Assembly (NCBI GenBank): GCA_003214175.1
Contig: QCLZ01000003.1
Location: 86,001 to 150,000, forward strand
Direction: 5' to 3'
Length of the DNA stretch: 64,000 nt
Source of the DNA: Prochlorococcus sp. AG-418-I20
GTDB taxonomy: Bacteria; Cyanobacteriota; Cyanobacteriia; PCC-6307; Cyanobiaceae
Made by a program: the position numbers and the translations under genes. Shown here piece after piece: positions 10,525-38,273 of this stretch. Under the pieces are notes generated by a model. It was not told the origin of the DNA and made no database searches. It saw only the letters and a program-made list of their open reading frames with translations. How positions within the stretch are numbered: the first letter of the stretch is position 1; every line of letters starts with the position of its first letter.

Positions 10525-10580
10525 GGGGGTAACCCCATACTCCTCACACACTAAATCGCCCGATTTATCGGGCTTTTTTA
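10525..10580 (+). ncRNA. yfr1: Yfr1 small regulatory RNA
   Basis: A short 5' hairpin (GGGG-TAA-CCCC, 10526-10536) is followed by the single-stranded core ACTCCTCACACACT (10539-10552) and then a G+C-rich terminator hairpin (GCCCGATTTATCGGGC, 10558-10573) with a T run. This is the textbook Yfr1 architecture, and its place between guaB and trxA is the conserved Prochlorococcus location. Yfr1 is an abundant trans-acting RNA that base-pairs through the core with targets, including outer-membrane protein mRNAs and Yfr2-family RNAs. The terminator probably also ends guaB transcripts. The exact 5' end is inferred. Confidence 0.95.
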
Positions 10581-37915: not shown

Positions 37916-37997
37916 GTTTTTTATGGTTATGATTAACTTTCTCAGCAACCACCCATTTTTGGAAAGATTTAAATAATTAGTAATTTATACTGTAGCC

Positions 37998-38100
37998 TTT
38001 TAAATTACCTACAGAGTAGATTAAATACATCAGAAACTCCTCACACACTTTTTTCTGATAACTTTAAAAGTACTCGATCGCAATGTTTGGGTACTTTTTG
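37998..38100 (+). ncRNA. Candidate sRNA carrying the Yfr1 core motif in a hairpin loop
   Basis: ACTCCTCACACACT (38036-38049) is identical over 14 nt to the Yfr1 core. It lies in a hairpin whose 8-bp stem is ATCAGAAA / TTTCTGAT. A terminator follows: a 10-bp stem AAAAGTACTC / GGGTACTTTT-type with a T run (38066-38099). A TATACT -10 box at 37986-37991 predicts a 5' end near 37998 and a ~100-nt RNA. Unlike Yfr1, the core here is in a loop rather than between two hairpins. Confidence 0.65.
38066..38099 (+). terminator. Terminator of the Yfr1-core sRNA candidate
   Basis: AAAAGTAC (38066-38073) pairs with GTACTTTT (38091-38098), extended by a T-G and a C-G pair, with a 15-nt loop and a following T run. 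No protein gene upstream needs it, which supports an RNA gene. Confidence 0.75.
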
Positions 38101-38164
38101 TATTTTTTGTGATGTGACAGTTAAGATAGAGGTCTATTAGGTATTACATATTTTGAATTTAAGT

Positions 38165-38273
38165 GTGATATTAATGTTGTGTGTAGGAGGAATTGATTTA
38201 TTTCAGTGGAAACAAGGAAACACTCGAATTAAATTAATTTTAAAAGATCTCTCTCAGAGGGATCTTTTTTTTT
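38165..38273 (+). ncRNA. Yfr2-family small RNA
   Basis: Two GGAAACA boxes separated by one base (38208-38214 and 38216-38222) are the Yfr2-Yfr5 hallmark. Upstream, GTGTGTAGGAGG (38179-38190) is complementary to the Yfr1 core apart from one bulge, as expected for a Yfr1-binding RNA. A 12-bp terminator (38242-38273) with nine T ends it. The 5' end is uncertain: a TATTAAT box at 38169 would place it near 38180, and other -10-like boxes lie further up. Which of the numbered Yfr2-type RNAs this is cannot be told. Confidence 0.85.
38242..38273 (+). terminator. Terminator of the Yfr2-family RNA
   Basis: AAAAGATC (38242-38249) pairs with GATCTTTT (38261-38268) and continues through T-G, C-G, T-A and C-G pairs to a TCA loop. 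Nine T follow directly. Confidence 0.85.

Follow-up and report, generated by a model that had tools for sequence, protein, structure and literature searches.

Prochlorococcus sp. AG-418-I20 carries two copies of the core of the small RNA Yfr1 within the 64,000-nt stretch of DNA analysed here (the window), which raises the question of what kind of RNA the second copy belongs to. The first copy is part of canonical Yfr1 (RF01116, 10523-10576, 58.3 bits for a cut-off of 38), the single Yfr1 found in the genome by the RF01116 search, and all features of the window given here and below are on the plus strand. A sequence-only reading of this DNA had reported that the 14-nt core is repeated at 38036-38049, and the exact string ACTCCTCACACACT was indeed found at this place and at 10539-10552, exactly two copies in the window and both on the plus strand. 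When up to one mismatch was allowed, the 11-nt core gave 2 matches in the window for 0.21 expected. In its exact form it occurs in the 1.5-Mb genome at these two places only, and the reversed 11-nt core used as a control gave 0 matches across the whole genome.

The second copy is presented differently from the first one. The 14-nt core is common to both, whereas Yfr1 keeps it single-stranded between two hairpins and differs in place and flanking sequence; at 38029-38110 the core (ACUCCUCACACACU) is found in a hairpin loop. The two arms of this hairpin, ATCAGAAA (38029-38036) and TTTCTGAT (38052-38059), form the 8-bp stem that had been described and enclose a loop of 15 nt, the last stem pair being formed by the first A of the core. 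A terminator-type hairpin follows at 38066-38098; it had been recognised as a 10-bp terminator, but its arms (about 38066-38077 and 38087-38098) form 12 predicted pairs, two of which are G-U. A simple terminator scan of the region did not call this hairpin and called another one at 38242-38268. The fold of 38029-38110 was predicted at -17.2 kcal/mol (z = -3.37); among 200 shuffled sequences, one folded equally well.

In DNA this rich in A+T, stems of at least 8 bp surround an arbitrary 14-nt stretch at 633 of 63920 positions of the window (about 1%) and the stem by itself is therefore weak evidence. This commonness of 8-bp stems would favour a 14-nt match that arose by chance and has no function. 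However, such a reading is already contradicted by the conservation of the locus in relatives, together with the synteny, the Rfam match and the published expression of the orthologous RNA in the strain MED4 that are described below, and its probability is negligible. Taken jointly, core, stem, terminator and conservation are strong evidence.

The Rfam covariance model of Yfr10 (RF02362) matches 38029-38110 over its full length (model positions 1-78) with 61.3 bits, above the gathering cut-off of 43 bits. As in other members of the Yfr10 family, the ACUCCUCACAC core is located in the loop of the stem and, as is characteristic of the family in high-light Prochlorococcus, the gene lies directly upstream of a Yfr2-type gene, a match to Cyano-1 following on the same strand after 66 nt. 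Three such RNAs, Yfr10, Yfr12 and Yfr18, were reported in Prochlorococcus MED4 by Steglich et al. 2008 (PMC2518516), who found the ACUCCUCACAC motif to be common to them and to Yfr1 and to be exposed as a single strand. Their genes adjoin those of Yfr2, Yfr4 and Yfr5, RNAs that are able to pair with the motif through their 5' ends (PMC2518516). Later, Lambrecht et al. 2019 placed the motif between two stem-loops in Yfr1 and in a loop atop a stem in Yfr10 (PMC6778093), which is the same contrast as that drawn by the sequence-only reading. The position of Yfr10 obtained here in MED4, 346661-346738, agrees with the published one.

Neighbouring genes indicate which member of the family is present. 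The gene order around 38029-38110 (Fur-like protein, ABC permease, 55-aa ORF, 82-aa ORF, yfr18, yfr5, 129-aa ORF, 94-aa ORF) is identical to that at MED4 972241-972321, and the flanking genes are those of MED4 yfr18 rather than of MED4 yfr10 or yfr12. In the same way, the spacing of 66 nt to the Yfr2-type gene falls within the range of the yfr18 class (61-68 nt) and below that of the yfr10/yfr12 class (81-90 nt). Since both the neighbour genes and the spacing fit yfr18, the element at 38029-38110 is the ortholog of MED4 Yfr18, as judged from sequence, and the adjacent gene is that of the Yfr5 ortholog. MED4 Yfr18 (complement 972284..972388) was detected by Northern blot and 5'RACE, and Yfr18 was also listed for MIT9301, MIT9515, MIT9312, AS9601 and MIT9215 (Steglich et al., PMC2518516). 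The window copy and MED4 Yfr18 are alike in core, stem sequence, terminator, neighbouring genes and downstream Yfr5, but they differ in the loop (ACACACTTTT in the window copy, ACACACATTT in MED4) and diverge in the sequences of leader and terminator. Yfr10 and Yfr12 (RF02362) also share with it the 8-bp stem, the core in the loop, a terminator and a downstream Yfr2-type gene, whereas they occupy other genomic places, have the longer spacing to the Yfr2-type gene and a terminator of other sequence.

The sequence and structure of the feature are thus already known, as are its neighbourhood and its probable mode of action. The claim of an independent RNA gene with a Yfr1 core and its own terminator is borne out by the RF02362 match and by conservation in close relatives, its expression here being presumed. 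The implied novelty of the arrangement is not, as a core in a loop is the published structure of Yfr10 and Yfr18 (RF02362; PMC2518516, PMC6778093). Overall, the core, the hairpin, the terminator and the independent RNA stand, and the adjacent Yfr2-type RNA (38177-38268) had been left out.

A search of relatives for the combination of core, hairpin and terminator, which had been proposed as a check, found all three kept in 17 orthologs. Very little variation was seen in the core hairpin, in which none of 136 pair cells is disrupted, and the terminator hairpin keeps 198 of 202 pair cells, its pairs being mostly unchanged or altered on one side. Covariance of the stems had also been suggested as a check; the pairs are kept in the 17 orthologs, but the stem of the core hairpin hardly varies and hence what is observed is conservation rather than covariation. 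In a comparison of 51 paralogous copies, two double changes (T-A and G-C) were seen at stem pair 3/29, but mismatches also occur in degenerate copies. Beyond the orthologs, a pattern scan of named genomes recovered the core hairpin in at least 116 stretches, and it is present at over 100 Prochlorococcus loci; the 80 hairpin matches listed are all from Prochlorococcus except one named Synechococcaceae. The exact 14-nt string also has 101 matches in viral contigs, in none of which an enclosing 8-bp stem (6 bp at the longest) or a nearby Yfr2-type anti-motif was found. Phage-borne copies were consequently rejected, the viral matches being consistent with chance.

The downstream neighbour is a Yfr2-type RNA (Cyano-1, RF01701) at 38177-38244, matched with 74.3 bits for a cut-off of 41, which spans 38177-38268 with its terminator (38242-38268, called by the terminator scan). 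Cyano-1 was equated with the Yfr2 family because its matches coincide with the positions published for Yfr2-Yfr5, next to Yfr10, Yfr12 and Yfr18, in MED4, in which the order of Yfr18 and Yfr5 is the same as here. Near its 5' end, GUGUGUAGGAG (38179-38189) is complementary to the Yfr1/Yfr18 core and the predicted duplex with the Yfr18 loop reaches -16.9 kcal/mol, 14 of 5000 shuffled loops being equally good. Of 52 Yfr10-family copies, 51 are followed by a Yfr2-type gene at a distance of 61-90 nt and, according to a regular expression, such a gene is in range at 111 of the 116 hairpin stretches. When cognate partners were compared with shuffled ones, mean duplex energies were -16.67 versus -16.61 kcal/mol and 3597 of 10000 permutations were equally good. 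Given this absence of cognate preference, the idea that each loop core co-evolves with the 5' end of its neighbouring Yfr2-type RNA was rejected; the pairing of core and anti-core is generic and is not matched within each tandem pair.

Several observations were made on these tandems. Degenerate Yfr10-like copies with altered cores, ACTCTTCACACG for example, were encountered at seven loci (L013, L014, L016, L031, L146, L147, L152) and mostly adjoin Yfr2-type genes whose anti-core is altered as well (GTGTGAAGGAG); for some of them, pairing with the cognate partner is better than with the canonical partner, with no overall effect. At two other loci (L195, L221), the Yfr10-type hairpin is intact and the Yfr2-type gene that would follow it is absent or has degenerated. 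Genome G031 holds six Yfr10-family copies, and two of its Yfr10/Yfr2 tandems are convergent within about 1.7 kb (L140). Between yfr18 and yfr5 in the window, TGTGACAGTTAAGATA (38113-38128) is strongly conserved in the 17 orthologs. For yfr2 promoters, a motif named CGRE1 to which the GntR protein PMM1637 binds has been reported, and 38113-38128 may be an upstream regulatory site of the Yfr2-type gene.

Concerning its function, the RNA at 38029-38110 very probably acts in trans, its core pairing with target mRNAs and being antagonised by the downstream Yfr2-type RNA. The core 5'-ACUCCUCACAC-3', extended by AC(U), would be displayed in the 15-nt loop of the 8-bp stem ahead of an intrinsic terminator, and the exposed core would most likely pair in antisense with target mRNAs, as has been demonstrated with MED4 Yfr10. 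The 5' end of the Yfr2-type RNA, GUGUGUAGGAG, would in turn pair with the core and compete with these targets. By analogy, we infer that the window copy of Yfr18 is expressed and functional. The published mRNA targets were determined for Yfr10 and not for Yfr18: in MED4, a Yfr10 pull-down gave enriched peaks in 253 mRNAs, footprinting was obtained on ppa with binding lost upon UCCU mutation of the core, and Yfr2 was shown to compete for Yfr10 (PMC6778093).

It had also been considered that the hairpin sequesters the core; unfolding or processing would then be needed to make the core active. The stem does include the core's first base, and species of 29 nt and 76 nt reported for MED4 Yfr18 (PMC2518516) suggest processing, but apart from this first A the core is predicted to be unpaired with a probability of 0.98-1.0 and in vitro binding to the target ppa was observed for Yfr10, which has the same hairpin, so that sequestration is highly improbable. 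Alternatively, the element could act mainly in cis on the adjacent Yfr2-type RNA, as sponge or anti-sponge within one precursor or a local duplex, rather than on mRNAs. The near-universal tandem and the complementarity of the loop to the Yfr2-type 5' end are consistent with such a role, as are the 270-nt Yfr10-Yfr2 precursor of MED4 (PMC2518516) and the ability of Yfr10 to shield Yfr2 from RNase E in vitro (PMC6778093). Nevertheless, the pull-down of mRNAs with Yfr10 and the lack of preference for the cognate partner argue against it, and a mainly cis-acting element is unlikely.

The Yfr18 RNA probably has a short leader. A candidate -10 element, TATACT (37986-37991), would place its start at about 37998-38000, probably near 37998. 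TATAC(T/C)GT is kept in most of the 17 orthologs, two of which carry AATACCGT. In MED4 Yfr18, the published 5' end (972388) precedes the hairpin by 67 nt (PMC2518516), and the conserved TATACT element does not account for it.

The genome studied here appears to hold a smaller set of these RNAs than MED4, in which four Yfr2-type and three Yfr10-family genes were counted. One Yfr1, one Yfr10-family and one Yfr2-type gene were found in the assembly, which is 95.6% complete. No Yfr10/Yfr12-type copy was found elsewhere in it, and an assembly of this completeness may miss one. A second Yfr10-like place (C8:51543, 28.2 bits, E 0.026) was rejected, as it lacks the core and a Yfr2-type neighbour; it also appears to sit at the end of a coding region. 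It is conceivable, if doubtful, that the circuit is reduced here to a single RNA of each of three kinds (Yfr1, Yfr18 and Yfr2-type), in which Yfr18 fills the light- and nitrogen-dependent role left by the missing Yfr10. If true, the Yfr1/Yfr10/Yfr2 network would exist here in a minimal natural form.

With the second Yfr1 core, a published sRNA family is confirmed in one more Prochlorococcus genome, together with its tandem arrangement. What is added to the existing literature is only the survey, according to which the loop hairpin is nearly invariant and the Yfr10/Yfr2-type tandem almost universal in relatives, with core and anti-core that are not matched pair by pair.
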